Assembly: GCF_000499845.2 (NCBI RefSeq)
Contig: NC_023756.2
Span: 34,246,763-34,310,762, forward strand
Source of the DNA: Phaseolus vulgaris
Taxonomy: Eukaryota; Streptophyta; Magnoliopsida; Fabales; Fabaceae
Direction: 5' to 3'
DNA length: 64,000 nt
The position numbers were made by a program, and so were the translations under genes. Shown here one piece after another: positions 10,685 through 37,550 of this stretch. The notes beneath the pieces were generated by a model that was not told where the DNA came from, ran no database searches, and saw only the letters and a program-made list of their open reading frames with translations. Position 1 is the stretch's first letter, and each line of letters starts with the position of its first letter.

Positions 10685-10908
10685 GTTGCCTCCCAGGCTC
10701 GAGAGGTGGTACAACCGAAGAGTCTGAAGAATGGGCCTCGGGCGGCTTGTGTAATGATGAGTGAAGTGATGTTTTGGGGCGCCTGAGCGATTGACGTGAC
10801 GCGCATTTATGAGGGGTTTTTTGGGCGCCAAGTGACGTGGACCGTTGGATCAAGCGAATCCAACGGTTGTGGTTTTGTGACATTTGTGATTCTGAGATCC
10901 TTCCGGGC

Positions 10909-10916
10909 TATAAATA
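10909..10916 (+). promoter_or_regulatory. TATA box for the antisense gene of Gypsy-1
   Basis: TATAAATA lies in a GC-richer context on the plus strand, about 100 bp before a good splice donor (AAAG|GTTAGT at 11012-11020). It faces opposite to gag-pol and lies inside the element, next to the 3' LTR. This suggests a separate antisense promoter with a leader intron. Not tested. Confidence 0.5.
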
Positions 10917-12880: not shown

Positions 12881-12949
12881 CCAGGAAGCTCCCCGCTCGG
12901 CCGCTCATGTCGCTATACAATGCGACCGACCGCGAGGAGGCTTTTGAGG

Positions 12950-13022
12950 GTACGCTGTTTAACGCTTGTCTTATTTTATGTATTGCGCTTTGTCTGACCG
13001 ACTTTTTGTTGTTTACTCGCAG
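12950..13022 (+). other. Intron in the Gypsy-1 antisense gene
   Basis: The donor is GAGG|GTACGC and the acceptor is ACTCGCAG|AAATCG. Removing the 73 bases restores one frame across the junction (codon G|AA). The intron in the Gypsy-2 antisense gene sits at an equivalent place with the same phase (codon G|AT). Confidence 0.7.
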
Positions 13023-13999: not shown

Positions 14000-14830
14000 G
14001 TCGGCATGCTTTGTAACTTGTTCCCTTGGGGCCGGGGTGTGGCCCCCACCTTTGCGTTTTAATATAATGGTTTTTTCTTTCAATTGCTTCGCGTTGTTTT
14101 TTTGGATGAGTGGGCTTTAACAAGTCGAGCCGGTCGGAATAATTAACCCTAACCGAGGTAGAATTAATTAAGTAAAATAAGCTAAGTAACCGGTCGGCAT
14201 GTTATTTGTAAGATCAAGTGATTGTAATGACGAATTTGACCGAACGTAATTAACCCAATCGCTTGCAATGAGCTGATTGTAGCATCAGCCAAGTGATTGT
14301 GACGATCTTGGTCGAATTAAAATCAACCAAGTGATTGTAACGAACTTGATCGAATTGAATAAGGTCGGTCGATATTGCTTTGACAAATTTTAATTGAACA
14401 AGTTGTGACTAACGTCGATTGGAGTAAAGGCCGGGAGGGTATGCCGGTTAGGGCTTCATCCTGGCCGAGCTAGGTACGGGTTTCGGGAAGGTATGCCGAT
14501 TAAGGCTACATCCTGGCAGAACCGTGTCAGTTTCGGGAGGGTATGCCGATTAGGGCTACATCCTGGCCGAACCGTGTGTATTACTCATTGTGTGCATCGT
14601 ATTTGTAAAAAAATCCTCGTTAAAACCTCTCCGATCGATGGATAGGCCGGGCGAGGAAAGAGTGCATGTATTTTATTCATGTTCAGCTGAAATAAAACTT
14701 TAGGTGCGTGGCATTCCACGTCCTAGGTACAATTTTTCCCGATAGCTGTTCCAAGTGATAAGCCCCTCCCTCTCCTACTTCTCGGATTCGGAACGGTCCT
14801 TCCCAATTTGATGAGAACTTGTCGTCCGAC
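14000..14830. repeat. Gypsy-1 untranslated region with tandem repeats
   Basis: Between the antisense gene stop and the integrase end lies non-coding sequence. It holds degenerate repeats of AAGTGATTGTAACGA (about 14210-14350) and three units of about 50 bp starting at 14432, 14484 and 14534, each with CGGGAGGGTATGCCGATTAG and CTACATCCTGGCCGA. Tandem repeats at this position are known from Tat/Ogre-type elements. Confidence 0.85.
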
Positions 14831-14833
14831 TTC

Positions 14834-16506
14834 CTAGCGTTGCTGCGCATTCTCTAGACGAGGTCGCCTTGGTGGAAGCTTCTGGGCTGGACCTTCGAGT
14901 TGTACCTTCTTGACGCTTGGAGCTTGCATGCCGCCTCTCGTATTTTGCTCTTGTCTCAAAGTTCGTTCAAGAGGTCTAGGCCAACCGCCAGACTTTCCTT
15001 GTTGAGGAATAAGTCGAAGAGTTGGCGTCTGATGGATGACTCCCCGACCTCCACCGGTATCATGGCCTCGGTGCCGTATGTGAGGCTGTAGGGGGTTTCT
15101 TGTGTGGTGGACTGCGGGGTGCAGCGATATGCCCACAAGACCTCGGGTAGCTCTTTTGTCCATCTCCCTTTTGCGGTGCCGAGCCTCTTCCTTAGCTCGT
15201 TCAGTAAGACCTTGTTGGCTGCTTCGGCCTGTCCATTCGTTTGTGGGTGTTCGACGGAGCTTGTGAGGGATTTGATGCCGAGGTCGTTGTAGAAGGTCAT
15301 GAGGCCTTGGTCGATGAACTGTCGGCCGTTATCGGAGACTATCGAGTGTGGTATGTCGAATTGGCACACTATGTTCTTCCACACGAAGTTTTGAACGTTT
15401 CGAGCAGTTATGGTGGCTAGGGGTTCGGCCTCTATCCACTTGGTGAAGTAGTCTACCGCGACTAGTAGATGCTTCGTTTGGCCCTTCCCCGGTGAAAACG
15501 GCCCGATGATGTCCATCCCCCACATGGCGAACGGCCAGGGTGATGTCATGCTATGCAGTTCCTCTGGCTTCCGATGATGGAGGGGGCCAAATTCTTGGCA
15601 TTTTTGACATTTTTTGACGTAGTCAGCGCTGTCTCCATGCACGGTCGGCCAATAATATCCTGCTCGGATGACCTTGGCCGCCATTGTCCGGGCCTTGGAG
15701 TGGCTTCCGCACGCTCCATCGTGGATCTCTTGCAGCACGTATTGGGATTGTTCCTTGGTGAGGCACTTTAGGAGTGGTGTTGAGTACCCTCTACGGTATA
15801 GGTCTTGGCCGATCATGGTGTACCGTGCACACTGCCGTCGGATGCTTCTTTCTTCCCCCGGTTGGCATGTCCCGTGTTCTAGGTACTGGGTGATCGGGGT
15901 CATCCATGTGTGAGTTTCGATGATTGCCATGCACTCGGTGTCACCTACGCTAGGTTGTGGCAGTCGCATTTGGACGACCGATCGGTGGTGACTTTGTTTT
16001 TTAGAAGACGCAAGGCGTGAAAGGGCGTCGTCCCGCTCGTTTTCCTGTCGTGGTATGTGCTCGACTACGACCTTGTCGAACTTGGCTATGACATTGCTAA
16101 CCGTGTGGTAGTATCGTTGGAGGAGAGGTTCCTTGACTTCGAATTCTCCTTTAATTTGGCCGACGACCAGCTGGGAGTCGCTTTTGCATGTGACCTCTCG
16201 TGCGCCTAGGTCGTTCGCTAGGTTGAGGCCGGCCAGTATGGCCTCGTATTCCGCTTGATTGTTCGTTGCTTTGAAGGAGAACTGGAGGGCTTGCTCAATC
16301 AACAAGTCCTCGGGGCCTTCGAGGACGACCCTGGCGCCACAAGCTGTTTTGTTGGATGAGTCTTCCACGTAGAGTACCCACTTGGAAGAGGTCCCTGAGT
16401 TTTTGGGTAGCTCGGTAGCAAAATCTGCCAAGCATTGAGACTTGATGGCGCCTCTTGGCTCGTAACTGATGTCGAACTTTGACAGCTCAACCGACCACCC
16501 TATCAT
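14834..16506 (-). pseudogene. Gypsy-1 RNase H and integrase, broken
   Basis: In element sense the frame opens at 16506 with the RNase H region: VLYVEDSSN holds the first acidic site, NNQAEYEAI the Glu, and CKSDSQLV the next Asp. Integrase follows with a zinc-binding H-H-C-C arrangement (GSHSKARTM and KCQKCQEF), then the core with the first Asp in WGMDIIGPF, the second in VSDNGRQF and the Glu in TNGQAEAANK. The N-terminal and core parts are in one frame to about 14956. The C-terminal tail shifts frame near 15000 and reaches about 14834. It would cut and join element DNA into the chromosome if functional. Confidence 0.85.
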
Positions 16507-16547
16507 TCGTCCTGCCAGGTCAGGTTTAGATAAAATTTGTTTATAGG

Positions 16548-17542
16548 TTAATTGGTCCTTACCGTGACTTCATGGTTTTGGAAGTATGGGCGCATCCTCC
16601 TTGTGGTCAGCACCAGGGCTAATGCCACTTTCTCTATCATTTGGTATCTGGTTTCGGCCGCATGGAGTGTCCGGCTGACGAAGTATACTGATATTCTTCG
16701 TGGTCCACCTCCTGGACCAGGGTTGAGCTGACCGCTTCTTCGGACACGGCCAGATAAACTACTATGGGTAGGTCTGGTCTTGGCTTTTTTATGACGGTTG
16801 GTGACGATAGGAACGTTTTGAGTTGGCCGAAGATCTATTCGCACTCCTCGTTCCAGCTGAACTTCGAACTTTTGCGGAGCATCTGAGTTATGGGCCTGAT
16901 TCGTTCGGCGAGGCGAGGAACGAATCTAGATAGTGTCGTTAGCCGACCGAGCAGCTGTTGGATTTCTTTCAGATTGCTCGGGCTTCTCATATCTGTTATG
17001 GCCTTACATTTATCGGGGTTTGCCTCAATTCCCCTGTGGGTTAGCATGAAGCCGAGGAACTTGCCGCCTTCCACGCCGAACACACACTTTTTGGGGTTGA
17101 GGCGCATGTTGACCCTTCTTAGGACGTCGAAGACTTTTTGTAGGTCCTTGATGTGCTGACCGCATGAGTCAGACTTTACCACGATGTCGTCTACGTAGAC
17201 CTCCACGTTTTTGCCGATCATCCCTTTAAAGATTTTGTCCATGAGCCTTTGGTAGGTGCCTCCGGCGTTCTTTAGGCCGAACGACATTACCTTGTAGAAG
17301 TAATTTGCGTCGTCGGTCGTGAAAGCTGTTTTGCCTCTGTCACTGTGGTGCATGCTTATCTGGTTGTAGCCGGAGTAAGCGTCCAGAAAACTTAGGACTT
17401 TATGACCGGCTGCTCCATCAACCAGCCGGTCGATGTTGGGTAGGGGGTATGAGTCTTTGGGGCACGCTTTGTTAAGGTCTTTGTAATCTACGCACATCCA
17501 CCATTTGCCGCTTGCCTTTTTCACCATCACCACATTGGCCAA
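16548..17542 (-). pseudogene. Gypsy-1 reverse transcriptase, broken
   Basis: RT motifs are clear on the minus strand: MCVDYKDLNKACPKDSYPLP, then FLDAYSGYNQI (the first catalytic Asp), FGLKNAGGTYQRLMD, and YVDD at 17186-17197. The frame meets TAG at 17543-17545, where the relative has Trp in DWLANVV, and another stop at 16835. The rest of the RT connection domain is in a different frame at 16844-16548, then another shift leads into RNase H. Confidence 0.87.
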
Positions 17543-18778
17543 CTAGGTAGAGTATCGTGCTTCAGCGATGAAGCCGACCTTTAGGAGTTTTTCGGCCTCG
17601 GTTATGGCTGCCAACCTCTTGTCCTCCCCGTGGCTCCTCTTCTTCTGGGCCACTGGGCGTGCTTCTTTGTATACGGAGAGGCAGTGGGTGATTATGTCCG
17701 GGTGAACGCCGGGTACATCGGCCGTCATCCAGGCGAAGAGGTCTGCGTTCTTTTTTAGCGTTCGGTGGATGAACTCTGCGTCGGCGGCGGCCATTGCCGT
17801 GCCGATGTTCGTGTGCCGCTCCCCCTCGCCGAGTTCTGCTCGGCGCAGTTCGTCCTTGGCCTCCAGTCTCAGTTCAATTTCTCTTGGGTCTAGGTCTGCC
17901 ATTGCGACGACATTCCTGGGTTGTGGGGAATGTTTCCGAGGGCTTCTACCTCGGCCGACCATCTTCCGTTTGGGCGAGTGGCTGCCTGTGGGTTTTTGCC
18001 ATGTTGGCTCAACTCGCAGGCTTTCTGCGTAGCACTCTCTGGCGATCTTTTGGTCGACGTGGATCGTCAAGATGTCGCCTGAGAGGGAGGGAAATTTCAT
18101 CGCCAAGTGAGGCGTTGAGACGATCGCTCCAAGCTTGTTGAGGGACAACCGCCCAAGGAGGATGTTGTAGGAAGTGTTTGCGTCTATGACCAAATACCTA
18201 ATCCTGAGGGTTTTGCTTGCCCCTTCCAGGCCGAACGTTGTGTATAGTTCTATATAGCCCTACGTGCCCACACGTTCTCCAGAGAAACCGACCACGTGGT
18301 CGTTGTAGGGCATCATCTCCTTTATCAGAATCCTCATGGCTTTGAAGGTCTTCCAGTATAAGATATCGACCGAACTTCCTTGGTCTACGAGGGCTTTCTT
18401 GATCGTAAAGTTGTCGATATCAATTGATATCACCATGGGGTCGTCCTGTGTAGGGTCTATCCCTTTGAAATCTTTATCCGTGAACGTAATCGGTGGCATC
18501 CTCGGTCGAGCGGAGACGAGGTTTACCTGGTGGACGGCCCGCAGGTGTTTCTTGCGTGCGTTGTTGGAGCTGCCTCCCCCAGCGAACCCTCCGACAATGG
18601 TGTTGATGACCTCTCGGCCTTTACGGGTGTCGGTCTGTGGGGGGTCGTCTCTCCGTCGGTCTCCACGTCTATCGCCTTCTCGAGGTCCCGGGGGGGTTCG
18701 GTCCCTTCTCCTAGGAGTTTGTTCTTTGCACGGGGAACGACGTGTTTCTCGGGTACTACGTACGAAGCGTCTGAGGTG
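17543..18778 (-). pseudogene. Gypsy-1 protease and linker, broken
   Basis: The region continues the gag frame after TGA at 18779-18781. It contains INTIVGGFAGGG (shared in kind with Gypsy-2), then the retropepsin-like core with LVDQGSSVDILYW near 18380. A TAG at 18260-18262 interrupts, after which the same frame resumes with YNILLGRLSLNKLGA (18193 onwards). It ends at TAG 17543. All breaks here are single stops in one frame rather than frameshifts. Confidence 0.8.
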
Positions 18779-19975
18779 TCAGGCCTGAATGAGCTCTTCT
18801 ATCTTGTCTTTCAGAGCTTGGCATTCCTCGGTGGAGTGGCCGATATTCTTATGGTACCGGCACCTTTTACTGCGGTCAGCATTCTCTAGGCTCAGGGCCC
18901 TTCGGGGTGGTGGTATCAACTCGGCGCTTAGGGCCTCTTGCAGAATTTTGCTCCTATCAGCGTTCAGAGGTGTGTAGCGGGAGAAACGAGGTCCTCGGTT
19001 GTCCCTCCTTTGATCCCGGCCAGCCCGGGACCTTCCTTGTCGTTCTCTGTCTTCCTTTTTTTCTCCATTTGCCTCGGCCCGGGCGTTGTTTCTGAACTCG
19101 CGGAGTTCTTCGAGCTGCATGAATTTCGATGCCCGGTGTTTAAGATCGTCGAGACTAGTTGTTGGCTGCATACACAGGCTGTCGGCGAACGGGCCGGGAC
19201 GCAGAGCGGTCAGCATGTGGTGCATTGCCACCTCGGGGCTGAGGTTGCGAATGCTTATGGCAGTTTTGCTTAACCGATCGATGAATGTTCTTAGGGATTC
19301 TCCCTTTTCTTGGCGAATGCCGACTAGTGCTATGGATGTTAGGTGGTGGGGACGGCTTGTTGCAAACTGAACGTCAAATTTTGCCATCAGGGTCTCGAAA
19401 CAGTCTATCGAATTTGCAGGGAGTTTGGTGAACCAACTCACGGCTCCTCCCTTTAGGGAGGTGGGGAAGACTCGGCACAAGACCGCGTCATCCGTGGTGT
19501 ACAAGCTCATGTGGGTTGTGTACGCGTCCACGTGCTCGTCTGGGTCGGTCGTCCCATCATACCGATCCCTGTTGAAACCTTTCCACTTGTCCGGAAGGGG
19601 GGTATCCATAATGTGGTCAGTAAAAGAATGGCTCCAATCCGGGCCCGTCATGCCGGTAGTGTTAGTCGTTTTGTTAGGGTGGGACTCCCCATCCATCTCC
19701 AGAGTGAAATCATTTTTCACCTCCTTCTCGGCCTGGAGGCCGGCACCCGTGGCGTAGGACCTGCCAGCCTGGTTGGTCGCGGCGAGGGACGACACCCCTT
19801 CAACCAACTTCTTCATTCATCTATTCTCTTCTTGGAGGTTTTTTATTTCCTCCTCGTTCTTCTTAGCGACCTCCTCATGGGCCTTCTTCATCTCTGCCAA
19901 CTCCTTCTGGAGGGCTATCATCATTGCCGTCTGATCTGCCTCGGACATGCTTGCCATGCTACGGGTTGATACCAT
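18779..19975 (-). pseudogene. Gypsy-1 gag
   Basis: The likely start is the ATG at 19975-19973, about 30 bases after the primer site. The first 52 codons include a Glu/Lys-rich coiled coil and end in TGA at 19819-19817. The same frame then continues for 345 codons: a capsid-like domain (WFTKLPANSIDCFETL, FVDRL-type block, LRPGPFADSL), a basic Arg-rich stretch, and a Cys/His motif CRYHKNIGHSTEEC near the end. Gag would package the RNA. Confidence 0.85.
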
Positions 19976-20005
19976 CTACTGTTGTGGTTTCTTCTGGCTC
20001 TCCTC

Positions 20006-20023
20006 GGCCCCACTGTGGGCGCC
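20006..20023 (-). other. Gypsy-1 primer-binding site
   Basis: On the minus strand GGCGCCCACAGTGGGGCC starts 3 bases after the 5' LTR. Gypsy-2 has the same site with one difference at the same spacing (36250-36267). The tRNA used was not identified. Confidence 0.75.
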
Positions 20024-20026
20024 AAT

Positions 20027-20490
20027 TGTTCTCGAACTAGTTTTGGGGACAGGGAGAACTATTGACTTCAGGTGCTACTCGGTCGGTTCAGCCGCGTTCA
20101 ACGCTCCTCCTTCCAACTTCCTCACCGAACGACTCCTCAGACTGGTGGGGTACCTGCAGATGACACTCCAACGCTCAAGTTAGTGGGGTATCGTATTCGG
20201 CTGTCAGAATATTGTTGATAATGACGTACCTTTTTCCTTGGAATGCGTGATATTTATATTACCTTGATGGGCCCTTGCTGTTGGGCCGGATTAGGGGGTT
20301 GCTTAGCGATTAGGGTTGGATTAGGTCGTTCCCTAACCATGGGTTAGCCTTTACTAATCGGGTCAACTTTTGACTTGAGCATCTTATGTCGGTCGGCCAC
20401 ATATGCCATGTGGTCGACCTCGTAGCTTAAGGTGGGGTCTAATTGCGTAGGTTGACCGAGTCAACATCCCCGGTCAGTCATCCCTGTACA
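20027..20490 (-). repeat. Gypsy-1 5' LTR (right)
   Basis: 464 bp, starting TGTTCTCG and ending CCCTGTACA on the plus strand. It pairs with 10208-10684 and is followed by the target duplicate GAAAT. Confidence 0.93.
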
Positions 20491-23705: not shown

Positions 23706-25212
23706 CACTAACCTTTTATCTTCAACTATATGTAATACTTAAATTATAAAATTTATAATTGATGAGATGTAGTCCAATGTTGTTAAACTCGAGGATCGGA
23801 AAAAAATAAATAAATTTGTTACTCGACTTGTAAGAGTAAGAATAACAGTTATTGGTTTAACCAAAATAATATTCAAATTACACACAACTAAAAGTAGGTT
23901 GATAATTCATAAAAATGCATTAAACAACTAATAAACTATCCTATGTAATCCTTCCTATTATCTAACCTTCAGTGCTTCCTTCATTATAAAACAAGGTAGA
24001 AAACAGAGAGGAACAAAGAAGAACAATGGGTAGTGAGAGTGAACAACAACGAGCGACAGCAGTGGCGAGTGCAAGCATTAGAGAGCGGAGAACGACGACA
24101 AGTGTGAGAACAAACAGTGTTGCGAACGTGAATGGTGGCAAGTGTGGTGGCGAGCGATGGTTGTGGGTTTGTTTCGGGAGTTGGTTTTTTGGGGTTCTTT
24201 CTGACTTGATTACTAACCCTAGCAGAAAAGGGGACAAGTAGGAGGATTTAGACGGTCCAACAATCCTCTGATTCACCGAGCAACACGCCTACTCGCTCCT
24301 ATCTGCTATCGCTCTTATTTTTCGTTCGAGTCGCCTCGCCTTTTCCTCCAAACTCATTGAATCGTATGAGTTAAACTTGCGATCTTAACAACATTGCTCT
24401 ACATCACTGACCTCCATTGCTAGTGTTATCCAATCACCCACATGCTATTTAGACTAACTTATGCTAAGCTATAAATCATTTTATCACTAAACTTTTGATA
24501 CCTATCATGCATACCGTAGCCCTAGATGCAACAACTTGTGAATAAGTGTGTCTTGCAGTCTCCTTTTGTAGTCTCTACATAAATGACCTCCATTGCCAAT
24601 GTTAACCAATCATGCAAAAGCTATGTAAGTTAACTTAGGCTAAACTTAAAATTGTCACAACCCTCTTGCGAGCTCTAAGAGCCTTCAGGAGATTGGTGCC
24701 TCTTAGGTTAACTATAAGAAGGGGTAACTCTTATTAAAGTATTAGTCATATATATTAATAACTAGAATGAAGTTAAAGTACAAAGTTGGTTCAACATATT
24801 AAACTAAAATAATATGGAGAAAATGCATTCCAAACACTAATAATTGATAATTAGAAACACAATTAATTCATTGACACATTAACTTGTTAGATGAATTTAG
24901 TTTGAAAATCTCTTTTGATTAATTTCCATATATTATACATTTAAATTTTGGTATGGTATTTATCGATTTCCTACTCTTTTTTTACTCATTCTATCCCCAT
25001 TCATCGTGTACACTAAATGACTTTTGTCTTTGAAATGAGGAAAAAGGGAAAAAAGCAGTTCATTTAGTTCCCATTACTGACCTTGAAGAATATGCGTATG
25101 AGGCAAAACAGGAGAGAACTATTTATGCATGTCAACACCATTAATTTCATGTAATTCTTATGATAACAATTAGGAATGCTATGATCTTTAGATCAATGTT
25201 GGAGCATTGTAT
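23706..25212. other. Non-coding, with a diverged direct repeat
   Basis: A segment of about 80 bp near 24395-24475 recurs at about 24573-24653; both contain TGACCTCCATTGC and a TAACTTA(T/G)GCTAA block. The 71-codon frame at 24026-24241 is low in complexity and unlike any protein I know. The rest is AT-rich. Confidence 0.4.
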
Positions 25213-25217
25213 ATACT

Positions 25218-26104
25218 TGATCCTGCCTGTTGACCAGAACGCTGGAGCTTTGCCTCGTCAAACTTGTATCGACTTCTGCGCCGCGTCAACCTCCGTCTTT
25301 CACCGTGATTCACCTCAAGAACCTGCAAAAGAACAGAACGGCGCCGCTGCGGCCGATCACGCTCCGACGCCCAAGTCAGCGACTGAACCACCAATTACTA
25401 AGAGTAAAACTTAAGAACTCTGAAGGAACCGTGCAATGTTCTCTCCCAGTATACTCAAGACTCGCAAGCGTAAAGAAGACAATCTGAACGTGCATACCTC
25501 AGAAGTTCGTTGGAAACTCTTATATACCTGGATACTTTCTCTCTCCTGGCAGTTACACATCTAGACACGTGGCTCGCATCCAGTTGTACACGTGCCATCA
25601 TCTGGAGCATCCTTGACTTGGGCGCTACTTCCGACTCTTCTTTGGCTAAGTTACTTATTCATGATACTACTCAGTGCATAGTCGCCTTGGAGCGTGATCT
25701 CTTCTGGATGGCGAGTTCGGGTGCCTTCGTACGCACCTTCCCTGTGGTCTCGCCGGCCGCCTTCATGATCTGCACCACCTGTTTCACCGTATATGCTCAA
25801 GTAAGCTGTCCCCTGACCTCATCCTCTGGCCAGCTGGGAAATGTCTATCTGCCTTCACCTTTGGCGATGTCCTTGTTTCGGCGATCTCTAATCACTTGGT
25901 CGCCTGGGTTTACATCTGGCGACTTCATCTTTAACCCGGTGACCGCCGGTTCTGGTGTGCTGGAGATCGGAGCACGCCAACTTAATAACTGGCGACTACA
26001 CGAGCCCCCCGACTTCCTTCCCTTCTGCCAGCCAGGAGTCCTATCAACACGCCTATACAATAGCTTGATGCCACGTCATTATTTCCGACTACCAGGGCGG
26101 TACA
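25218..26104 (-). repeat. Gypsy-2 3' LTR (left)
   Basis: 887 bp, TGATCCTGCC to GGCGGTACA on the plus strand. It is followed by a pyrimidine-rich stretch (AAGTCCCCCAGTC), which is the polypurine tract of the minus-strand element. Confidence 0.95.
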
Positions 26105-26457
26105 CAAGTCCCCCAGTCTTAAGCGAAGACTTGTCCAGCGAAAAGACTAAAGGAGTCACGTCAATACCGATCTACGTGGCGCTGACGCAGAATTCCAAAC
26201 GTTTGTACTTTCTGCTTTCCTGACGCTCCACCAAACACTCCTCCAATCGCTCGACACGTGGCTTCATCAACGGTTACCCTTAATTGTCGTTTGCGCTTCC
26301 AAAACCCATTCGAAAAACCCTTAAACCCATTTCACTTCTACTGTTCCATCACTTCTTTGCTTTCTCAAACGCTTCAAGCTTCTTCTGCAAAAACTCACGA
26401 CGCTCTGCAACCTCCTGAATCCTCAACTTCCTTCATCGTTCTTCCGATCATAAAAAG

Positions 26458-26689
26458 GTACTCCCTTTACTTCTTCTGCTGATTTTTCCTGCATTTTAAC
26501 CGATTCGCATCATCCATTAACTATCTGGTGCATACGCTGTGGGCTGTTTCTTCTATTTCTCCTTTCTCGTAACTTAGGGCTTCGTCTTCGTTACAACGAA
26601 CCTTCGTTCGTTCGTTTTTCACCCTTTTTTCACGATCGAGTCAGCCTCTGCGGACCCTGATCACCTTTCCTTTTCTTTTTCCTTTGCAG
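26458..26689 (+). other. Possible leader intron of the Gypsy-2 antisense gene
   Basis: The donor is TAAAAAG|GTACTC. The acceptor TTTGCAG follows a pyrimidine tract and lies 8 bases before the ATG at 26698. Gypsy-1 has a similar donor (AAAG|GTTAGT) in its leader. Inferred from sequence only. Confidence 0.45.
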
Positions 26690-26697
26690 TTTCCGCG

Positions 26698-29274
26698 ATG
26701 GCTCGAACAAAGACCACCGCGAATCCTCCTCCCTCGTCACGAAACCCTTCGTCTCAAGCTCACAACGCACCACGAGCACCTGGTGCTTCTTCTTCCCAGG
26801 CTGAGAGGCCTGCAACCTCCCACCCTAACCTGGCTCAGGCTACTCCCCTAGTCGCCGGAGGAGCCTCCATTCCTTCCCCAGACTTCAAAAAGCTATACCC
26901 CTGGGCCAGCTCGGCACTGCTGAAAGAAACGTCCTCGATAAACTCCGAAACGGCGGTACTCCGACTAAGGAAAGGGGATCAGTCGGATCTTTCCTTTCAC
27001 AAGGAGCATGACAACAAGGTGACCGTGCTGCCTTGCCACCCTGAGGAGCCGATTTGTGCTGACGACAAAGTGAGCGGTGGCGAGTCGTTCTGCTTCCTCT
27101 ACACAACGTTATTCAAGAAGGTGAAGCTCCGACTTCCCTTCACCCGTTTCGAGCGAGAGCTGCTAACCGAGCTCGATATCGCCCCCGCCCAGCTTCATCC
27201 CAACAGCTGGGCGTTCGTAAGGGCGTTCCAGATCATGTGCGACCATCTGGGGCTGCCAGCGTCAGTGGACGTTTTTCTTTTTCTTTTTAAAGCCAAACAC
27301 CCGGGAGATCGCTTGTGGGTGAGTCTGAACGGAATTGCTGGGAGGTCGATCCTCTTTATCTTCCAGCAATCCTACAAGGATTGGAAGGGCAAATTTGTCC
27401 AAGTACGCCAAAACGACCAGGATGCCTCGATGCTCGACGGGTTTCCCTTGTACTGGGTAAACAAGGGAAACAAAGACGCCAAGGGAAGCTTCAGGATGCC
27501 AAGAAGTCCTGACAGCATGGGTGCTTTGGACAAGGATTTGTGCCTCTTCTGGAAGAGCGTGGCAGGCGCCAATATCACCTTCCTCACCACTGCGCTTATC
27601 TCCTTCGAGTTCTTCGAAGATCAACTCGAAGTTCGCATAGGTTAGAGCTCACATCAGTGTCTAAGTCATTACACTTGACGTTACTTCTGCTAATTGTTTC
27701 TGGGCGTCTTGTCTGTTGTGCACAAGACTTTGGTTTTATTTTCTGCACCACTTATCTGCTTTTGTTGCATACTGACTTATGTGTTTATCCTTCTCTCTGA
27801 GCTAACCCATGTATCTTTGTATTATGCAGATCGTATGTTGGGCAAGGGAAAACTGGCTGAACTGAGGGCGCTCGCCCGAGCCCATGGGTTGGCGTCGGGT
27901 TCCCAGACCGTGCCAAATTCAGTGGTGGAGATCGCTGCTGCCCAGGGCAGATCGCCCCCTAAAGGCCCAACTCCTTCAGAGGCCCAGCCCGCCCAACAGC
28001 GCAAAAAGCTCTTCCTCAGGAAGCCAAAGAGGAAAACCCCTCAGGTGGTCCAAGAGGATGACGAAGAAGATGATGAGGCGACTGAAGATGGCCTTATCAC
28101 CAAGAGGAAGAGGGTGGCGCCTTCTTCACCACCTTCCACACCAGCTCCACCTCCCACACTGCTTCCTGCTCCAGCTCCCACCTCGCCAGTCCAAGCAGTT
28201 CCTCTGGCATCTGCACCTCCTGTGGTTGAGGCCGCCGAGCCCAACTTCATGGAGAACTCCCCGAGCGCCTCCACGCCCTATGTATCAGCTGGAGGGGGCC
28301 CTCCTTCAAACGCCTCAACCGCAGATGCTGCACCAGGCGGGGATGAAGGTGCTCACAACTCGCCTATCATCATCACCGAATCCCCGACGTTGCCACCACG
28401 CCAAGAAGCACCCATTCAACAACCAACTCAAGAAGGTGGCGGTGAGAACCAACAACAAGCTCCCCTGGTGCCCCCACGAGCAAACCTCTCACTTGAGGTA
28501 AAAAGGGTGTGGGAACCCTTCTCAGCAAAACTCAAGATGATGGCGGAGGACTTCCCCTCCATCATTTCCAAAGCTGTGGAGAGTTCCAACAAGAAGCTCC
28601 AGGATGACATCTCCGTGCTCCAAGAGGAGAATCGCCTAATCAGGATCGAGGCGGAGAAGTTATCCTGCAATCTCATGCTCGCGGAGCTCGAGCACTCCTG
28701 AGTGGAGGATGCCATGAGCACCGAGCTTCGGGAGGCACGCAAGGAGGCCACCGATTTATGCCATAAGGTGCAGCTCTTAGCTCAAGAGAAGATCGAGCTG
28801 GAGAGCAAGCTGGTCCCTTATCGCGTCAAAGTGGCTGACCTGGAGGCGTTGATCAAAGCGGATGCCACCAAGGTAAAAACCCTCGAGAAGAGGTCAGCCG
28901 ATCGGGAGGTCTTCTTGGGGAAGGTCGAAAAGGAGAGAGACGACACCATGGCCAAACTCGCCGAGGCCAAAGAGGAGCATGGGAAGATCACCACACAGCT
29001 GGCCCAAGCGCAGGCGGAATCCAAGAAGGTTACTGAAGACCTTCTTCAAGCTCGGGAAACAATCGAAGAACTCAAGAAACAAGCTGAAGAGCTGAAGCAG
29101 CAGAACAAAGAAACAGATTGAAGAACTTGAGCTGAGCTCCGCCCAGATTCTCGCTGTTGGATTCGAGGCTGCCCGAGAACAATTCGCCTGTCTGTACCCT
29201 GACTTAGATCTTTCCATGGTGTCGCTGAACAACGAGGTGGTGGACGGGAAGGTTGTCCCTTCTGAAGACTAGCT
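26698..29274 (+). pseudogene. Gypsy-2 antisense gene (aORF), two exons, broken
   Basis: Exon 1 (26698-27640) starts at a good ATG and encodes 314 residues: a Ser/Pro/Ala-rich start, then a domain with FCFLYTTLFKKVKLRLPF, LHPNSWAFVRAFQIMCDHLG and a LYWVNK region, comparable to 'putative gypsy type transposon' proteins. The 189-bp intron (27641-27829) joins exon 2 in phase 1. Exon 2 has an acidic/Lys segment that may act as a nuclear signal (KKLFLRKPKRK), a long Pro/Ala linker, and a Glu/Lys-rich coiled coil from about 28500 to 29110. A TGA at 28699-28701 and a frameshift near 29105-29120 break it. The last frame ends at TAG 29272-29274 with EVVDGKVVP. The intact ancestor would be near 800 residues. 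Function unknown. Confidence 0.8.
27641..27829 (+). other. Intron in the Gypsy-2 antisense gene
   Basis: The donor is GCATAG|GTTAGAG; the acceptor is TATTATGCAG|ATCG after a T-rich tract. The frame ahead of the donor ends one base into a codon and the exon after the acceptor completes it, so both long frames join cleanly. Confidence 0.75.
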
Positions 29275-30480
29275 GCTCGCTGCTTCCTTCACCACTTACT
29301 CATCTGCCTCTCTCTTACCCAATTTGCTTGTAACAAATTTTCCCTTTTCTGCTCATGTATCTTGAACTGATTATACTTTATTATAAAGTCTTTGTGCTTC
29401 TTCTTGCAACTTCTCTGTCTGCTTTATCTTTCCTCACTTCAACGAAATTAACTTAGTAACTTTGTAAGCGCAATCGTATACTATCCGCCTCGAACCATCA
29501 GTTTTCGAACAATAACACTCTAACAACTTGTAACCACAGGGTACTGAACCTTAGCGCGAAATCGCTCTTCAAATAACGAACCTCAACCCAACTAATGGCT
29601 CAAGACACAGCTCATCTGACCTGCCTTATCAAAACGGGTCTTGACTTTCTCGCTATTGCTTGAATTTCTCCTGGTCGCCAAAGACTCTTGGCGATATCAA
29701 CTTCCTCCTGCCTTCACAACTTGGCCATTGTTTCTTTATCTGGGGGTAGAGGCGCCTTTCGGATCCTTCTCTACCTCCCTGAGCTTTAGAACAAAAGACC
29801 GGGTGGCTAGGCGTTCTCTTCGAACCTACCTTAGCCACCCTCCAAACTTCTTCCACCCTTTACACCATACCTGAACTCGTTCGAGACGAGAAGGATTTTA
29901 TCTTGCCTGAACTCGCTCATCGGCGAGAAGGTCTTTATCTCGGGCCTCTACATTGCCCCAGGGGTTACATCTTCTCTCCCCCAGAAACACTGAGGACTTT
30001 TTGCTGGTGCCTCTACATTGCCCCAGAGGCTACATCTTCTCTCCTCTGGGAGCACTGAGAACTTTTTACTCTTCCTCGCCTGCACTCGCTCGACGGCGAG
30101 GAGGTCTTTATCTCGCCTCAGGACGCGCGAGGGCGTTGAGGTCTTTTATCTGGTGCCTCCGATCGCCGAAAGACGATGAGGACTTTAACTTTTAACTGAG
30201 GTCGCCAATCGCCGAAAGACGATGGGGACTTAGAAACTTTTTAGAAAGCATGCACCATAACTTTAACTCGCCTTAAATCACATATAAGTGATAGGGTCTT
30301 TCTTCAAAACTTTCGGAAAACAACAAGCATGCAATCTAAAACAACTTTAAGCTTCGAAAACTCTTCTTTATTGGGCGGCCTCATTAAAAACCCTCCTTAG
30401 GGAAAAAAGAGTGCCCCCTCCAAACTGTTTTAACAGAAACATTGTAAAGCTCTTCGTGTTTGTTTTTACTTACAAAGTTC
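29275..30480. repeat. Gypsy-2 untranslated region with tandem repeats
   Basis: Non-coding sequence between the antisense gene and the integrase end. From 29870 to 30235 it holds interleaved short repeats: CCTGAACTCG...GAGAAGG units at 29870 and 29906 with a relative at 30079; 65-bp units starting GCCTCTACATTGCCCCAG at 29944 and 30009; and CGCCGAAAGACGATG units near 30162 and 30211. It matches the Gypsy-1 repeat block in position but not in sequence. Confidence 0.85.
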
Positions 30481-33400
30481 TTAACTGTAATATAACTTGA
30501 GGTGCGTGGCGTTCCAAGTGCGAGGAATCGCCCCTCCTTCCAATGTCTCTAGGCGGTAGGCGCCGTTCCCGAGTGCTTCGGTTATTCTGAACGGTCCCGT
30601 CCACTTAGGCGACAGCTTATTCTCCATCTCGTACTGGTGGGCCTTCCTCATCACCAGGTCGCCCTCTCTGAACTGTCTTGGCATCACCTTCGAGTTATAT
30701 CTTCGTTCAATCCTTCTCTTCACCGCCTCAGCTTTCAATCTCGCCTCCTCCCTGACCTCATCCAGCAAATCCAGATTCAGCCTTCTTTCCTCATTCGAGT
30801 CTTCCGCTACAAAATTCTGGAATCTCGGCAAGCTCTCTTGGATTTCTACTGGAATCATTGCGTCGAATCCATAGACCTGGCTGAACGGGGTCTCATGGGT
30901 TCCTGACTGCTCGGTGGTGTGGTAAGCTCAGACTATACGGGGTACCTCCTCAGCCCAGCTTCCTTTGGCTTTCTCTAGCCTTCTCTTCAAACCTCTTAGC
31001 AACACCCGATTGGCTGACTCTACTTGGCCATTCGTCTGAGGGTGCTCGACGGATGCAAATACTTGTTGAATTCCCACCCCTTCGCACAGCTTCTTCAACA
31101 GGTGACTTGCAAACTGAGTCCCGTTGTCCGACACCAGGCGCTTGGGCACACCAAACCGGCACACAATGTTCTTCCACACGAAACCCTCGATCTTGTGTGC
31201 GGTGATCTGGGCCACTGGTTCTGCTTCGATCCACTTGGTGAAATATTCAATCGCCACCACCAAGTACTTCATCTGCCTGATCGCCAGCGAGAATGGTCCT
31301 AGGATGTCGATTCCCCATGTATGAAACGGCCAAGGGTTGTAAATCGACTTCAACTCCTCGGGAGGCGCCTTGTGCCAATCGGCGTGCTGCTGGCATTGTT
31401 TGCAGCACTGCGCATACTTCTTGCAATCTTCTCTCATTGTTGGCCAGTAGTAACCTGCACGGAGAGTCCTTGCGGCCAGAGCTCGACTCCCGACGTGGCT
31501 TCCGCATATCCCTTCATGGAGCTCTGCCATAATTCTCGTACATTTCTCGCCATGCACACATTCCAGGAGTGGGTGAGTGAACCCAAACCTATACAACTCG
31601 CCATCAATCATTGTGAACTTGCTAGAGTTCTTCTTTATCTTCCTAGCCTCCGTCGGATCCAGCGGGAGAAGGCCATCCGCCAGACACTGTTTGTACTGCG
31701 TCACCCAGGTGTCTGGCTCATGGGTCGCGCAGACCTGCGTCATGTTCACCCACTCCTCCCGACATGCTCTTATTCTCGGCGATCTCAAGGTTTCTTGAGT
31801 CAAAGACCTGTGACTCCTTGCCGCTTTCTCCGTCGATTTGCGTATCTGAAGAACCAGGTGATCTGCCACAAATGCTCTAGTCTTCAGAGTTTCTTGAATC
31901 ACCGTCCTCTGCCTACCCCCTTTGCCTGAACTAGCGAGCTTGGCTAGCAAGTCAGCTCGGGCATTCTGCTCCCTGGGCACATGCACCACTTCAAAGGAGA
32001 CAAAGGAACTCTTCAATTCCTGTACAAACTCCAGGTAAGCCGCCATCTGTGGATCTTTAGCCTGGAACTCGCCTGTTACTTGTCCCGTGACTAACAGCGA
32101 GTCACTCTTAGCCATCAGCACCCTGGCTCCCATCTCCTTAGCCAGCAAGATACCGGCGATCAGCGCCTCATATTCTGCTTGATTGTTGCTGGCCTTGAAG
32201 GCAAACCTCAAAGATTGTTCGATCAGCACGCCGTTGGGTCCCTCCAAGATGACTCCAGCACCGCTACCTTGCTGGTTCGACGATCCGTCCACCGAAAGCA
32301 CCCAACGGAAATCAGCCCCTTCAACTCGTGCCGCTTTAGACGAGAGCTCGACCACGAAGTCTGCGAAGATTTGTCCCTTGATCGGACCTCGGGGCTCATA
32401 CTTAATATCGAACTCCGACAGCTCCACTGCCCACTTCACCATCCTTCCCGCAACATCGGGCTTCTTCAAGACCTTCTGGATGGGCAGGTCGGTCATCACC
32501 AGTATCGTGAAGCTATGGAAATAGTGGCGTAACCTCCTTGCCGAAAAGACTACTGCCAGTGCAGCCTTCTCCAGGGCCTGATATCTCGTTTCGGGGTCCT
32601 GCAGCACTTTACTAACCAAATAAATGGGCTTTTGAGCCTGATCTTGGTCCTGGGCGAGCACCGCACTCACCGCCCTCTCAGTTACAGCAAAATACAACCT
32701 GAGAGGGGTTCCCATCAGTGGTTTGCACAAAACCGGCGGGCTCGCCAGATACTCCTTAAGCTTGACGAAGGCTTCCTCACACTCCTTCGTCCAGGCAAAT
32801 TTGTTATTCCGCCTTAAACACTGGAAATATGGATGGCCCTTCTCTCCGCTAGCCGACACGAAGCGAGACAGGTCGGCCATCCGACCTGTAAGCTGCTGTA
32901 CTTCCTTCACGGTGGCCGGGCTCCTCATCGCCAAGATGGCGGCGCACTTGTCGGGGTTGGCCTCTATTCCTCTTTCAGTTAAGAGGAAGCCCAAGAACTT
33001 CCCAGCCTCCACGCCAAAGATGCACTTCTCGGGATTCAGCTTCAACCTAAACTTGGCGATCGTAGTGAACAATTCCTCCAAGTCCGCAACGTGCTTGCTT
33101 TTCTCTGGCGAGGTCACGACCATGTCATCCACGTACGCTTGCACATTTCTTCCCAGCATTGGTGCAAGTACTCGATCAATCAACCTCTGGTACGTGGCCC
33201 CTGCGTTCTTCAGCCCAAAAGGCATCACCTTGTAGCAGTAGCACGACCTCTCGGTCATGAAGGCAGTCTTTTCTTCATCCATGGGATGCATCTTGATCTG
33301 GTTATACCCCGAGAAAGCATCCAGGAAACTCAGCAACTTACACCCTGCAGCACTGTCCACCAGGGCGTCTATGCTTGGCAAAGGATACGAATCCTTTGGG

Positions 33401-33540
33401 CAAGCCTTGTTCAGATCAGTGAAATCGACGCACATGCGCCACTTCCCATTGCTCTTCTTCACCAGTACGACATTGGCCAGCCAATCAGGGTACTGCACCT
33501 CCCGGATATGGCCTGCAGCGAGGAGTTTTGTGTTTCGTCT
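30481..33540 (-). pseudogene. Gypsy-2 reverse transcriptase, RNase H and integrase
   Basis: A nearly intact 1000-residue frame. RT: MCVDFTDLNKACPKDSYPLP, FLDAFSGYNQIKM, FGLKNAGATYQRLID and YVDD (33124-33135). RNase H: LSVDGSSNQQGSG, NNQAEYEALIAG and AKSDSLLV give the acidic residues. Integrase: GSHVGSRALA and QCCKQCQQH for the zinc site, then WGIDILGPF, VSDNGTQF and TNGQVESANR for the D-D-E triad. The C-terminal domain ends with GPFRI and GNGAYRLE near 30560. The only break inside is TGA at 30928-30930 (Trp expected). A frameshift near 33530 separates it from protease. Confidence 0.9.
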
Positions 33541-34820
33541 CTAATCGCCTGCCTCCTCTCCTCGTTGAACTTCCTTCTCCTCTGGCGTACCGGTCTGACC
33601 TGATTGTCCATCGCCAAATGATGGCACAAGAAGTCGGGATCGATCCCGGGCATGTCCGAAGCGGACCATGCAAACGCATCCAGATGCCGTTCTATCACCT
33701 TGGCGATCTGGTCCTGGAGCTCAACCTCCAGAGATCTTCCCAGCTTGAAGATCTTTCCTCTGATCTCTCTTTCGAGCCACTGCTCGACGGGTTTTGGCCT
33801 GGTTTCTCTGGCGATCACCGCCCTGGCGATTCCCAGCTCCCTCGCTTCCTCAGGGCGATTCCTTGCCTCTTCTTCCTCTAAACTGGCGTTCCCCTCCCCC
33901 TGCTCAGCATCCACCATCACCACGTCACTTCCGGCGGTCTCTTCTATTACCGTCGATCTGGGCTTCACACCAGGAGGCGGGGTGGTTGTCACGTAACTCA
34001 CCGACCTCTTGTTCTTCAGGCTATTCTCATAGCACTTCTTCGCTTCTTTCTGGTCGGACTTGATGGTGATCACCACCCCCTCCATAGACGGCAGCTTCAC
34101 CTTCATGTGTCGGGTCGACGGTATAGCGCCTATTCTGTTGAGCGTGGGCCTTCCCAGCAGAATGTTGTATGCTGAAGGAGCGTTCACGACAAGGTACTTG
34201 ATTTTCTCTGTTCTCGAACCCGCCTCATCTATAAACGTAGTCCTCAACTCAATGTACCCCCTGACCTCCACCTGGTTACCAGCGAAACCATACAAACACC
34301 CTCCATAGGGCCTCAGCTAGTCAAGGGGTAGCTCCAACGGCATGAAAGTCGGCCAAAACATCACGTCTGCCGAGCTTCCTTGGTCCACCAGAACCCTGTG
34401 GACCTTCCTTCCTGCTGTGATCAGCGAGATGACTATGGGATCGTTGTCATGAGGCACAACGTCCCGAAGATCTTGCTTTGTGAACGTAATGTCCACATCC
34501 GGCGAGTGGTCTTCAAACATATCCACCGTCATCACAGACCTCGCATACTTCTTTCTCTGTGACGCGGTGCACCCACCACCCGAGAAACCTCCTGCAATGG
34601 TGTGGATTTCCCCGTGGGTAGGCATCTCGTGCTGCTGAGCCTCACCACCTGCTGGTTGGGAGCTCGACGCGCCCCCCGTCCTTCTGTCCAGCAAGTAGTC
34701 GTTTAGGAACCCGCTCTTGACCAGATCGTCGAGCTGGTATCCTAAAGCCAAGCACGAATCCACGGTGTGGCCAAAGCCCTGGTGAAACTCACACCAGGCG
34801 TCTGGCTTTGGTCCCAGCAC
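33459..34820 (-). pseudogene. Gypsy-2 protease region
   Basis: The frame runs from the gag Cys/His box (CEFHQGFGHTVDSC near 34790) through IHTIAGGFSGGG, the retropepsin-like LVDQGSSADVMFW near 34370, and YNILLGRPTLNRIG near 34165. TAG at 34317-34319 interrupts one frame; coding continues on both sides. It shifts frame near 33530 to enter RT. Protease would cut the polyprotein. Confidence 0.85.
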
Positions 34821-35877
34821 ATGGCGATCAGGTCCGCCAATCCCATGACAAACTTGTGCTTTGGCGGGCGATTGTACTCCCGGCGTGCTGGTTGAGGGCG
34901 CCCTGGGCCCCTGCCCTTGTTCTTCCTTGGGTCATAAGGATGGCGAGTCCTCTGATCCCTCCTGGCCGCCGCTGTCTCCAGCACCCTCTGGGGCTGGATC
35001 CTGGTCTGGGCACGTGGCCTAGCGGGAGCCACGCTTCCCCTCTTCTCGGCAACCTCACTCTCATCGGCGATGTGGGCCACCGCAAGTCGCCTGACCTCAG
35101 CAAATGTGGCAGGGTGAGCCCTGATCAATGCCTCGCAGAATGGTCCCGGCAGCACGCCCTTCTTAAATGCGTAGACCAGCATCTCTTCATCTTTGGCCGG
35201 CGATCGGACCATCTGCGCCCCAAAACGATTCAGGTAGTCCCTGAGGGACTCTCCCTGATACTGCCTTATGTCGAACAAGTCATAAGACACCCTGGGCGGT
35301 GCCTTGTTCACGATGTACTGCTCGACGAAGATCTTTGAAAACTGTTGGAAGTTGGTTATGTGGCTGTAGGCAGGTTCACAAACCATTCCAGCGCCGTTCC
35401 CTGGAGTGTGCTCACAAACATTTTGCAGTACACGGCGTCTGACCCTCCTGACAGCATCATCTGCGTATGGAACGTGGTGAGATGAACCTCAGGATCCTCC
35501 ACGCCGGTAAAAACAGCCTTCACAGGTACCACACTCGCAGGGATAGGCGTGTCGGTAATCGCCTGAGCGAAAGGCATAGGAAAAACGCGAGGCGGCGTTG
35601 ACGGCGCGACCTCTTCAGCGACTGGACGCCCTTGCTGCTCCTGAAGAGCTTGACGCAGTTCTTCAGTCACTCTGCTAAGCTCATCATTCCTGGCCCGAGA
35701 GGCGACCAGGTCCTCGTGCATTCTTGCCTGCTCTATACGCGAGGCTTCCACATTCGCCTGCAGCGAACGCATGATTTCAACCATCTGCGCCATAGTCATG
35801 GCGCCTTCAGCAGCAACAGGCGCAACTGGACTTGAACGGTTGCTTCTCATTTTTCTCATGAAAACTTGACAAATCAC
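34742..35877 (-). pseudogene. Gypsy-2 gag
   Basis: Gag begins near 35850 (MRSNRSSPVAPVAAEG) with a coiled-coil segment rich in Glu/Gln, then a capsid-like domain (GGSDAVYCKMFVSTLQGTAL, FSKIFVEQY, QGESLRDYLNRF, LPGPFCEAL). It closes with an Arg/Pro-rich basic region. A frameshift near 35370 splits the capsid region and another near 34810 splits the end from the Cys/His box. Confidence 0.85.
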
Positions 35878-35883
35878 AGAGAG

Positions 35884-36249
35884 CGGTGAACAACACCTTC
35901 TTCAACGATGATCGATTCAGCGATCAATCGGTCAGAACTTCGCGAAACTTCGAAAGAAACCTCAAGGACACAACGAACCTTCACAGAAACCCGCAACTCC
36001 ACCAAAAACCAATGCTTCTCCCACGAAAAACCAAACGAGCCAAAGAACTCAGATCTCACCGAACGAAACTCGCGCAATCAGCAGAAAACTTCACCTCACC
36101 GAACAAAAACCCAAAAGAACGGTGGAAAACGCGAAATTACCGAACGAAACCTAGATGAACAGCGGACAATGGTTGCACCAGCACACAACCACACAGAAAC
36201 TGCAGAAACCTTCAAGAACTCACGATGTGGATGGGAACAGGTTTTACAC
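35884..36249 (-). other. Gypsy-2 5' leader
   Basis: In element sense this is the untranslated stretch between the primer site and gag. Short open frames on both strands here have no family resemblance. Confidence 0.6.
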
Positions 36250-36267
36250 GGCCCCACGGTGGGCGCC
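36250..36267 (-). other. Gypsy-2 primer-binding site
   Basis: On the minus strand GGCGCCCACCGTGGGGCC lies 3 bases after the 5' LTR. It differs from the Gypsy-1 site by one base. Confidence 0.8.
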
Positions 36268-36270
36268 TGA

Positions 36271-37157
36271 TGATCCTGCCTGTTGACCAGAACGCTGGAG
36301 CTTTGCCTCGTCAAACTTGTATCGACTTCTGCGCCGCGTCAACCTCCGTCTTTCACCGTGATTCACCTCAAGAACCTGCAAAAGAACAGAACGGCGCCGC
36401 TGCGGCCGATCACGTTCCGACGCCCAAGTCAGCGACTGAACCACTAATTACTAAGAGTAAAACTTAAGAACTCTGAAGGAACTGTGCAATGTTCTCTCCC
36501 AATATACTCAAGACTCGCAAGCGTAAAGAAGACAATCTGAACGTGCGTACCTCAGAAGTTCGTTGGAAACTCTTATATACCTGGATACTTTCTCTCTCCT
36601 GGCAGTTACACATATGGACACGTGGCTCGCATCCAGCTGTACACGTGCCATCATCTGGAGCATCCTTGACTTGGGCGCTACTTCCGACTCTTCTTTGGCT
36701 AAGTTACTTATGCATGATACTACTCAGTGCATAGTCGCCTTGGAGCGTGATCTCTTCTGGATGGCGAGTTCGGGTGCCTTCGTACGCACCTTCCCTGTGG
36801 TCTCGCTGGCCGCCTTCATGATCTGCACCACATGTTTCACCGTATATGCTCAAGTAAGCTGTCCCCCGACCTCATCCTCTGGCCAGCTGGGAAATGTCTA
36901 TCTGCCTTCATCTTCGGCGAAGTCCTTGTTTCGGCGATCTCTAATCACTTGGTCGCCTGGGTTTACATCTGGCGACTTCATCTTTAACCCGGTGACTGCC
37001 GGTTCTGGTGTGCTGGAGATCGGAGCACGCCAACTTAATAACTGGCGACTACACGAGCCCCCCGACTTCCTTCCCTTCTGCCAGCCAGGCGTCCTATCAA
37101 CACGCCTATACAATAGCTTGATGCCACGTCATCATTTCCGACTACCAGGGCGGTACA
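36271..37157 (-). repeat. Gypsy-2 5' LTR (right)
   Basis: 887 bp, TGATCCTGCC to GGCGGTACA, pairing with 25218-26104. It carries cis sequences for the gag-pol transcript; no promoter was pinned down. Confidence 0.95.
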
Positions 37158-37319
37158 ATACTGAATTTGGTCCTTTTCTTACTTATTGGCAACTTGCATT
37201 CTCTAATTATCTCAACCCGTGACTGCATATGATTCTTGTTATATTCATTCATTTTTATTCAAAACATGAGGATGAAATTGTTTTTCATTTAGAAGATTCA
37301 ACTAAAAAACTCAACCCTA

Positions 37320-37550
37320 AAGGATATATTTTTCCAAGTCTTTGGAAAAGAACGACATGGCTATGTATACACATATAAAAAAAGGGTTGTACCTTCTGAC
37401 TTATGAGGATCTAAAACTCAAGTTGCAATACAAAAATTAATTGATAAAGTTCAAAGAAATGCTTAGTTGAACTTCAAAGGATAAAAGAAAGAATGCAAGA
37501 GGAAATGGAAACAATGCTAAAAGAGCAAGTGGAAGCCATGGAAATCTAAC
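37320..37550 (+). pseudogene. En/Spm-type transposase-related fragment (C part)
   Basis: With several stops the plus strand reads VFGKERHGYVYTY near 37339, then a Gln/Lys/Glu-rich tail. A KERxGxVRGxG-like block followed by a Q-rich coiled coil is the usual C-terminus of plant Ptta/En/Spm-related transposases. Together with 23470-23705 it may be one gene split by Gypsy-2. Small local duplications follow (about 37616-37668 and 37770-37809). Confidence 0.5.

Follow-up and report, generated by a model that had tools for sequence, protein, structure and literature searches.

Gypsy-1 and Gypsy-2, two Ty3/gypsy long terminal repeat (LTR) retrotransposons, lie within a window of 64,000 nucleotides (nt) of the Phaseolus vulgaris genome (537.7 Mb, 467 contigs), and each carries a gene opposite to gag-pol between pol and the 3' LTR. 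We consider it about 75% probable that this gene is the aORF-3R/TRP28 accessory gene of Retand-type Tat retrotransposons, whose predicted spliced antisense transcript would encode a nuclear accessory protein. The gene has the same architecture and a homologous phase-1 intron in both elements, occurs in diverged families and is under purifying selection in both exons. A first-pass annotation of the window had reported the gene from the two elements, and its position next to the 3' LTR was correct. The gene is not limited to these elements. Protein searches of the genome scored at least 126 Gypsy-2-type copies (84–100% identical; a lower bound, given 12,731 first-look candidates) and at least 139 Gypsy-1-type matches (45–100% identical). 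A search of public proteins gave 289 homologues of exon 1 and a profile search gave 411, 120 being listed in each case.

The first-pass annotation had described an N-terminal block, a phase-1 intron at an equivalent place, a coiled coil and a C-terminal motif as common to the two genes, and all four withstood closer analysis. The window frames scored 36.6 and 33.9 bits against the Transposase_28 model (TRP28, PF04195), above the Pfam gathering cut-off of 26.2 bits, and 4/4 members of set A3 matched it as well. The conserved core covers about 190–250 residues (52 and 85 aligned homologues), compared with the 69 positions of the Pfam model, whose name is not evidence of transposase activity. Exon 1 of Gypsy-1 and Gypsy-2 aligned with 33% identity over 174 columns (BLASTP, E = 1e-20), and the comparison of the family profiles gave E = 3.5e-35; by these alignments, the N-terminal domains of the two types are clearly homologous. 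The C-terminal EVVDG(K/R)xVP block is likely homologous too, judging from 7/10 identical residues in the terminal motif (pairwise E = 0.004) and from the profile comparison (E = 2.9e-6, probability 88%). The Gypsy-2 protein ends in EVVDGKVVPSED (last position 29269). The antisense protein also contains the basic clusters KPKRK and KRKR, a linker with 23% proline and a coiled coil whose mean heptad score was reached by 0/500 shuffles. The homologue P0265 (46% identical, from another element) shows the same domain order; its frame runs through the intron, and its C-terminus is CVVDGKIVPR.

The intron was compared in 41 Gypsy-2-type copies (the window copy, the 20 next best and 20 hand-chosen from ranks 29–120 without a listed stop) and in 7 of the 139 Gypsy-1-type members (the window copy and L041–L046, chosen for spread, four of them for long open frames). 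Gypsy-2 exon 1 sits inside a 355-codon stop-to-stop frame (26578–27642), and the following intron is T-rich, with 61% A+T versus 42–46% in the exons. The donor GT was kept in 41/41 copies and the acceptor AG in 38/41. No clean loss of the intron was found among the 41 copies; in L028, the 3' part of the intron and the acceptor fail to align. All seven Gypsy-1-type members kept the intron borders, the interior being variable and T-rich. In several homologues, such as P0265, P0084 and P0116, the intron is read through into a recognisable exon 2. The readable in-frame introns of L041, L042, L044 and L046 were discarded as evidence of intron retention because these copies had been fetched for their long open frames.

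Gene models provided a further view of the junction. Among 47 NCBI-named bean models, retrieved with P0074, 13 include the exon 1 end, and 11 of these join exactly at the intron junction, with D. Ten of the 11 are of Gypsy-2 type and read ..I-D-xMLGKG, while P0145, from a diverged family, reads YI-D-SMSGKD. A loose motif for the exon 1 end matched 103/267 collected proteins, 12 of them NCBI-named; of the remaining 91 matches, 89 end in G, S or C, residues encodable by an NGT codon that would supply the donor GT. The intron junction is backed by the gene models; the full two-exon protein is not. In P0145 itself, the end of exon 1 comes from a diverged TRP28 family and the coiled-coil half from the Gypsy-2 family, which could reflect a domain swap between families or a model spanning nested elements. 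Three of the 47 models bear the name 'filament-like plant protein 1', probably a misannotation.

A second intron of the Gypsy-2 gene, in the 5' untranslated region (5'UTR), is plausible from its splice-site-like ends. A 3' splice site lies immediately 5' of the ATG, a feature beyond the first-pass annotation, and its AG was found in 40/41 copies. The donor AG^GT at 26458 was kept in 19/21 long Gypsy-2-type copies.

Selection was assessed on the premise that new copies are neutral after insertion, so that singletons are neutral and shared variants carry the selection acting on active lineages. In exon 1 of the 41 copies, the singletons comprised 96 non-synonymous (N), 52 synonymous (S) and 7 stop changes, and the shared variants 71, 140 and 1, respectively; sites carrying more than two alleles (85 in exon 1) did not enter these counts. 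The contrast was pronounced (odds ratio 3.6, p = 5e-9) and held for transitions only (odds ratio 4.1, p = 2.5e-8), the neutral expectation for N/S being about 2.4 (kappa 4) or 3.1 (kappa 1). For exon 2, from whose N/S counts L016 was left out, the coiled coil gave a significant contrast in 20 of the 21 closest copies (p = 0.006). The pol contrast in 17 copies had p = 3.5e-16. Four of five control frames yielded the opposite contrast, and the fifth, a minus frame with coinciding third positions, an odds ratio of 3.05.

The ratio of non-synonymous to synonymous divergence (dN/dS), which had been proposed as a check of selection, did not lie near 1. Pairwise values dropped with divergence from 0.323 (dS < 0.05, 13 pairs) to 0.105 (dS > 0.5, 362 pairs). 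A common set of 17 copies gave dN/dS values of 0.090 for pol, 0.123 for the TRP28 domain, 0.155 for the start of exon 2, 0.286 for the linker and 0.155 for the coiled coil. This set omits L003 and L004 (pol stretch largely absent or replaced), L016 (most of exon 2 deleted, pol shortened) and L020 (lower pol identity, 0.905). The non-coding control at 29300–30300 gave 0.54–0.87 over six frames in each half. Shared variation affected 17.6, 13.4 and 58.8% of codon positions 1, 2 and 3, and 48.8% of the intron. The amino acids encoded by both exons are under purifying selection, and the constraint on the TRP28 domain approaches that on pol. Since dN/dS is far below 1, falls with divergence, is frame-specific and behaves so in both exons, we place the selection on the protein and not only on the antisense RNA. 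The earlier suggestion that either the protein or its antisense transcript had been under selection can be narrowed to its first half; the transcript is not needed, as protein selection explains the data. An additional RNA role may exist alongside the protein.

Several observations weigh against the accessory-gene reading. The exon 1 copies were selected by protein score and the distant 20 were stop-free, which lowers both dN and the stop counts. The contrast was not significant for transversions only (p = 0.55), for exon 1 in the 21 closest copies alone (p = 0.19) or for exon 2a in 20 of these 21 (p = 0.12), and the constraint on shared variants was weaker than in pol (N/S of 27/51 in 21 copies versus 22/146 in 17 copies). 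The wobble-mirror minus frame also had a low ratio (0.25), because it shares its third positions with the antisense gene. The LHPN core of the domain is missing from all 47 NCBI bean models. The 11 models that use the junction have an internal Met from the late part of exon 1 as their first residue, other models begin in exon 2, and P0157 and P0196 join elsewhere than at the junction. P0074, P0132, P0182, P0193, P0213 and P0214 begin like exon 1 and lack the LHPN core, by domain-skipping splicing, in deleted copies or as an annotation effect. Repeat masking in the annotation could explain the absence of the core from the NCBI models, as could a low abundance of the full two-exon mRNA. For the coiled coil, 24% of shuffles reached the score of the best single 28-residue heptad window. 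The structure model was middling (predicted local distance difference test 71.5, predicted template modelling score 0.74), and neither Foldseek nor VIA matched the predicted fold to a solved structure; DNA binding is consequently without structural support.

Coding of the same stretch on the minus strand was rejected, the mirror frame having 206 stops versus 9 and being open in 0/21 copies. The 343-residue minus open reading frame (ORF) at 12976–14007, opposite Gypsy-1 exon 2, is a mirror ORF of the antisense gene. It was not kept in five other Gypsy-1-type members, whose longest minus stop-free runs in exon 2 span 107–233 codons versus 324 in the window copy.

The frame-specific constraint also bears on what the gene product is. 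Antisense RNA could pair with the genomic RNA, trigger or buffer silencing by small interfering RNA and limit copy number, the reading frame being a by-product. The gene does lie opposite the end of the genomic RNA, and antisense transcripts with such effects have been reviewed for other elements. An RNA function, however, would give no reason for stops to be avoided or amino acids preserved, and variation at third positions equals or exceeds that of the intron while first and second positions vary far less; we rejected an RNA-only function as very improbable. It is harder still to credit a passively captured gene that decays neutrally and looks conserved through recent ancestry and the choice of copies. 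The selection of copies by protein score, the broken window copies and the small number of copies with both exons open (3/21) suit such a gene. Against it, dN/dS decreases with divergence rather than staying near 1, exon 2 stands at 0.155–0.29 and was not used in choosing copies, and families at 33% identity retain the domain, the intron and the C-terminus. That the exons make separate products, a TRP28 protein and a coiled-coil protein rarely or never fused, would account for the fact that none of the 47 bean models joins the LHPN core to exon 2 and many start there, and it matches published surveys, which record ORFs singly (PMC11963269, PMC4093653). The conserved splice sites and phase in both types, together with the 11 models that use the junction, make this improbable.

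The spliced accessory gene remains our preferred explanation. It would be an independent transcription unit with at least two coding exons opposite gag-pol, giving one protein with the order TRP28 domain, basic proline-rich linker, coiled coil and conserved C-terminal block. The genomic RNA would hold the complement of the intron, so reverse transcription would copy the intron unspliced into each new element; the intron would persist in an RNA-copied element because its splice sites lie opposite to the genomic RNA strand. Only a plus-strand nuclear transcript of an integrated copy, once spliced by the host, would yield the full protein. The basic clusters, proline linker and coiled coil, in line with the nuclear GENE23 protein of maize Grande, suggest a self-associating nuclear factor that may act in trans on the DNA, chromatin or transcription of the element, a proposal we hold tentatively and at somewhat less than even odds. 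It is doubtful that the TRP28 gene is an anciently spliced nuclear gene whose antisense placement shields the intron from retrotransposition, and which regulates integrated copies, perhaps across flowering plants, under nearly pol-level constraint.

Two more specific roles appear rather unlikely. The protein could be an anti-silencing factor that binds the chromatin of the element and opposes methylation by the host, as reported for VANC from Arabidopsis Hiun in the case of a DNA transposon. A nuclear, element-encoded and selected protein present in many copies would suit this role, as would the retention of the gene in L003 and L004. However, the searches linked the protein by neither sequence nor fold to a silencing-related protein, and the plant mobile domain (PF10536), which occurs in Ogre extra ORFs and host proteins, was rejected as a relative (hhalign probability 0.2%, E = 0.25 against five bean sequences). 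Alternatively, the protein could bind the pre-integration complex and carry it into the nucleus, as a factor for nuclear import of the complementary DNA or for integration targeting. The basic clusters, the coiled coil and a constraint close to that of pol are compatible with this option, which is named in a review citing nuclear GENE23 (PMC7264820). The protein lies outside the gag-pol polyprotein, however, and its own spliced antisense mRNA would suggest separate timing and dosage. We lean towards a role in transcription or silencing over one in import or integration.

Other searches for relatives of the antisense protein were negative. A PDB sequence search with the domain profile found no match, and the PHROGs search led nowhere. 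A viral origin was rejected as far as we looked, with no relative in IMG/VR contigs or phage records and no viral fold match at E = 0.001.

Both window copies of the antisense gene are broken, which the first-pass annotation had not stated. The Gypsy-2 copy has an in-frame TGA (28699–28701) and a frame change near 29096–29118. In the Gypsy-1 copy, exon 1 is split by an insertion of about 1 kb, the reading frame changes within exon 2, an in-frame stop occurs at 13735–13737, and there is no ATG where 5/6 fetched relatives (L041–L044, L046) have one. The residues RLV precede the start codon in 5/6 fetched Gypsy-1-type copies, and the window reads AGG TTA GTC at 11014–11028, perhaps a 5'UTR splice acceptor (TTAG). 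The flanking matches of the insertion to L043 overlap by 5 bases, resembling a target-site duplication, and the insertion includes a TATA-like sequence as well as the terminal part of a reading frame; it is perhaps the truncated end of another retroelement. Among the 21 long Gypsy-2-type copies, exon 1 is open in 14, exon 2 is open to the motif in 6, and both are open in 3, as expected since most copies are dead. L003 and L004 have a 92–97% identical antisense gene; these are possibly non-autonomous or truncated elements that retained the gene. L016, missing most of exon 2, is the opposite case.

Table 1. Features of Gypsy-1 and Gypsy-2 in window coordinates
Feature	Position	Strand	Basis or remark
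Gypsy-1 3' LTR	10205–10666	-	96.5% identity to 20024–20486
Gypsy-1 antisense gene, exon 1, first part (PF04195)	11014–11882	+	PF04195 E 3.8e-8 for frame 11014–12069; end from comparison with L042 and L043
Insertion of ~1 kb in Gypsy-1 exon 1	11883–12876	.	missing from L042 and L043
Gypsy-1 exon 1, last part	12877–12949	+	comparison with relatives
Gypsy-1 phase-1 intron, 73 nt	12950–13022	+	GG^GTAYG...YAG in 7/7 aligned Gypsy-1-type members
Gypsy-1 exon 2, interrupted, ending EVVDGRLVP...	13023–13995	+	open frames, profile comparison
Gypsy-1 pol, in pieces (reverse transcriptase (RT) 16835–17527; additional RNaseH (aRH) and integrase 14956–16506)	14956–17527	-	domain search
Gypsy-1 5' LTR	20024–20486	-	LTR–LTR comparison
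Gypsy-2 3' LTR	25218–26104	-	887 nt, 97.97% identity to 36271–37157
Candidate 5'UTR intron of Gypsy-2 antisense gene	26458–26689	+	ends AAAAG^GTAC and TTTGCAG^TTTCCGCGATG
Gypsy-2 antisense gene, coding exon 1, Transposase_28 (PF04195) domain, conserved core ~aa 58–314	26698–27640	+	PF04195 E 5.4e-9
Phase-1 spliceosomal-type intron, 189 nt, GT..AG	27641–27829	+	splice-site ends, copy alignment
Gypsy-2 coding exon 2: basic motifs, proline-rich linker, coiled coil, C-terminal EVVDGKVVP block	27830–29272	+	interrupted in window copy
Gypsy-2 pol: RT, RNaseH, additional RNaseH (RVT_3), integrase	30928–33435	-	domain search
Gypsy-2 gag	34742–35386	-	PF03732 E 1e-9
Gypsy-2 5' LTR	36271–37157	-	LTR–LTR comparison

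Gypsy-1 (10205–20486, LTRs of 462–463 nt) and Gypsy-2 (25218–37157) both lie on the minus strand and contain gag, RT, RNaseH-type domains including the additional RNaseH, and integrase. An additional RNaseH besides that of the RT is described as unique to Tat Ty3/gypsy elements (PMC6317226); RVT_3 was found between RT_RNaseH and integrase in Gypsy-2 (E = 5e-22) and ahead of integrase in Gypsy-1 (E = 5.5e-20). Both elements have a PF04195 ORF in antisense orientation between pol and the 3' LTR, a feature assigned to the Retand clade (PMC11963269). By these domains, the two elements are Tat-type Ty3/gypsy and Retand-like, the Retand label being one of features and not of tree placement. Their identity is 62% in RT, 45% in RNaseH–integrase, 33% in the antisense domain and 26% in gag. 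The LTRs, which had been called unrelated, indeed share only one 28-nt stretch (82%) and two 10-nt matches. At 30627–30926, one minus frame is constrained (dN/dS 0.08) past the pol-frame stop at 30928; the integrase C-terminus probably continues there, the window Gypsy-2 pol frame ending early. An Rfam scan of 25000–37500 gave no match at the gathering threshold.

Antisense accessory genes of Retand elements have so far been without agreed function. In the survey of Vicient 2025 (PMC11963269), antisense TRP28 ORFs were reported in 97% of recent Retand clusters, and DNA binding and regulation were proposed for them. Like the bean gene, these ORFs lie antisense between pol and the 3' LTR and match PF04195, sometimes with a second, SMC-like domain. 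The survey lists ORFs of at least 600 nt, or shorter if they hold TRP28, so the two exons would probably be counted apart. Its main text never uses 'intron' or 'synonymous', in contrast to the intron and selection results presented here. Gao 2014 (PMC4093653) described an opposite-strand ORF2 in 15 Ty3-gypsy families of common bean, such as pvRetro13, with the same host, place and orientation as the present gene and mutually related proteins, some with an SMC-like region. Its text mentions no intron, and its table gives sizes per family without exons. By description, Gypsy-1 and Gypsy-2 probably belong to these families or are related to them. Retand is reported to be the major Ty3/gypsy lineage in common bean, and RNA of its Retand I subfamily reportedly rises in virus-inoculated plants (PMC13392006); the antisense gene is thus present in this species in many copies. 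GENE23 of maize Grande, which a review (PMC7264820) describes as an accessory gene in antisense orientation within the 3' internal region, with its own antisense promoter and a nuclear protein, resembles the bean gene by description in position and orientation. The word 'intron' does not occur in the available text of PMC11963269, PMC4093653 or PMC7264820. Our literature search found no report of an intron in an antisense TRP28 gene; the original Retand, Grande GENE23 and Tat extra-ORF papers were outside its coverage, so one may be in print.

HBZ of human T-cell leukaemia virus type 1 (HTLV-1) is an antisense gene whose nuclear protein is an antisense regulator of a complex retrovirus. The bean gene is analogous in layout to HBZ, which is also named in PMC11963269, and no homology is claimed. 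A 2020 review called for a search for spliced antisense transcripts (PMC7264820), and the exact junction is now given for such RNA searches. The present results point to a full protein that exceeds each exon ORF in length, and to the protein, rather than antisense RNA alone, as the product under selection. Ogre, another member of the Tat lineage, has an intron in gag-pol (PMC6317226), whereas the intron of the bean antisense gene lies on the opposite strand. Antisense genes of this kind are already known; new, as far as the literature was searched, are the intron and the selection at the protein level.

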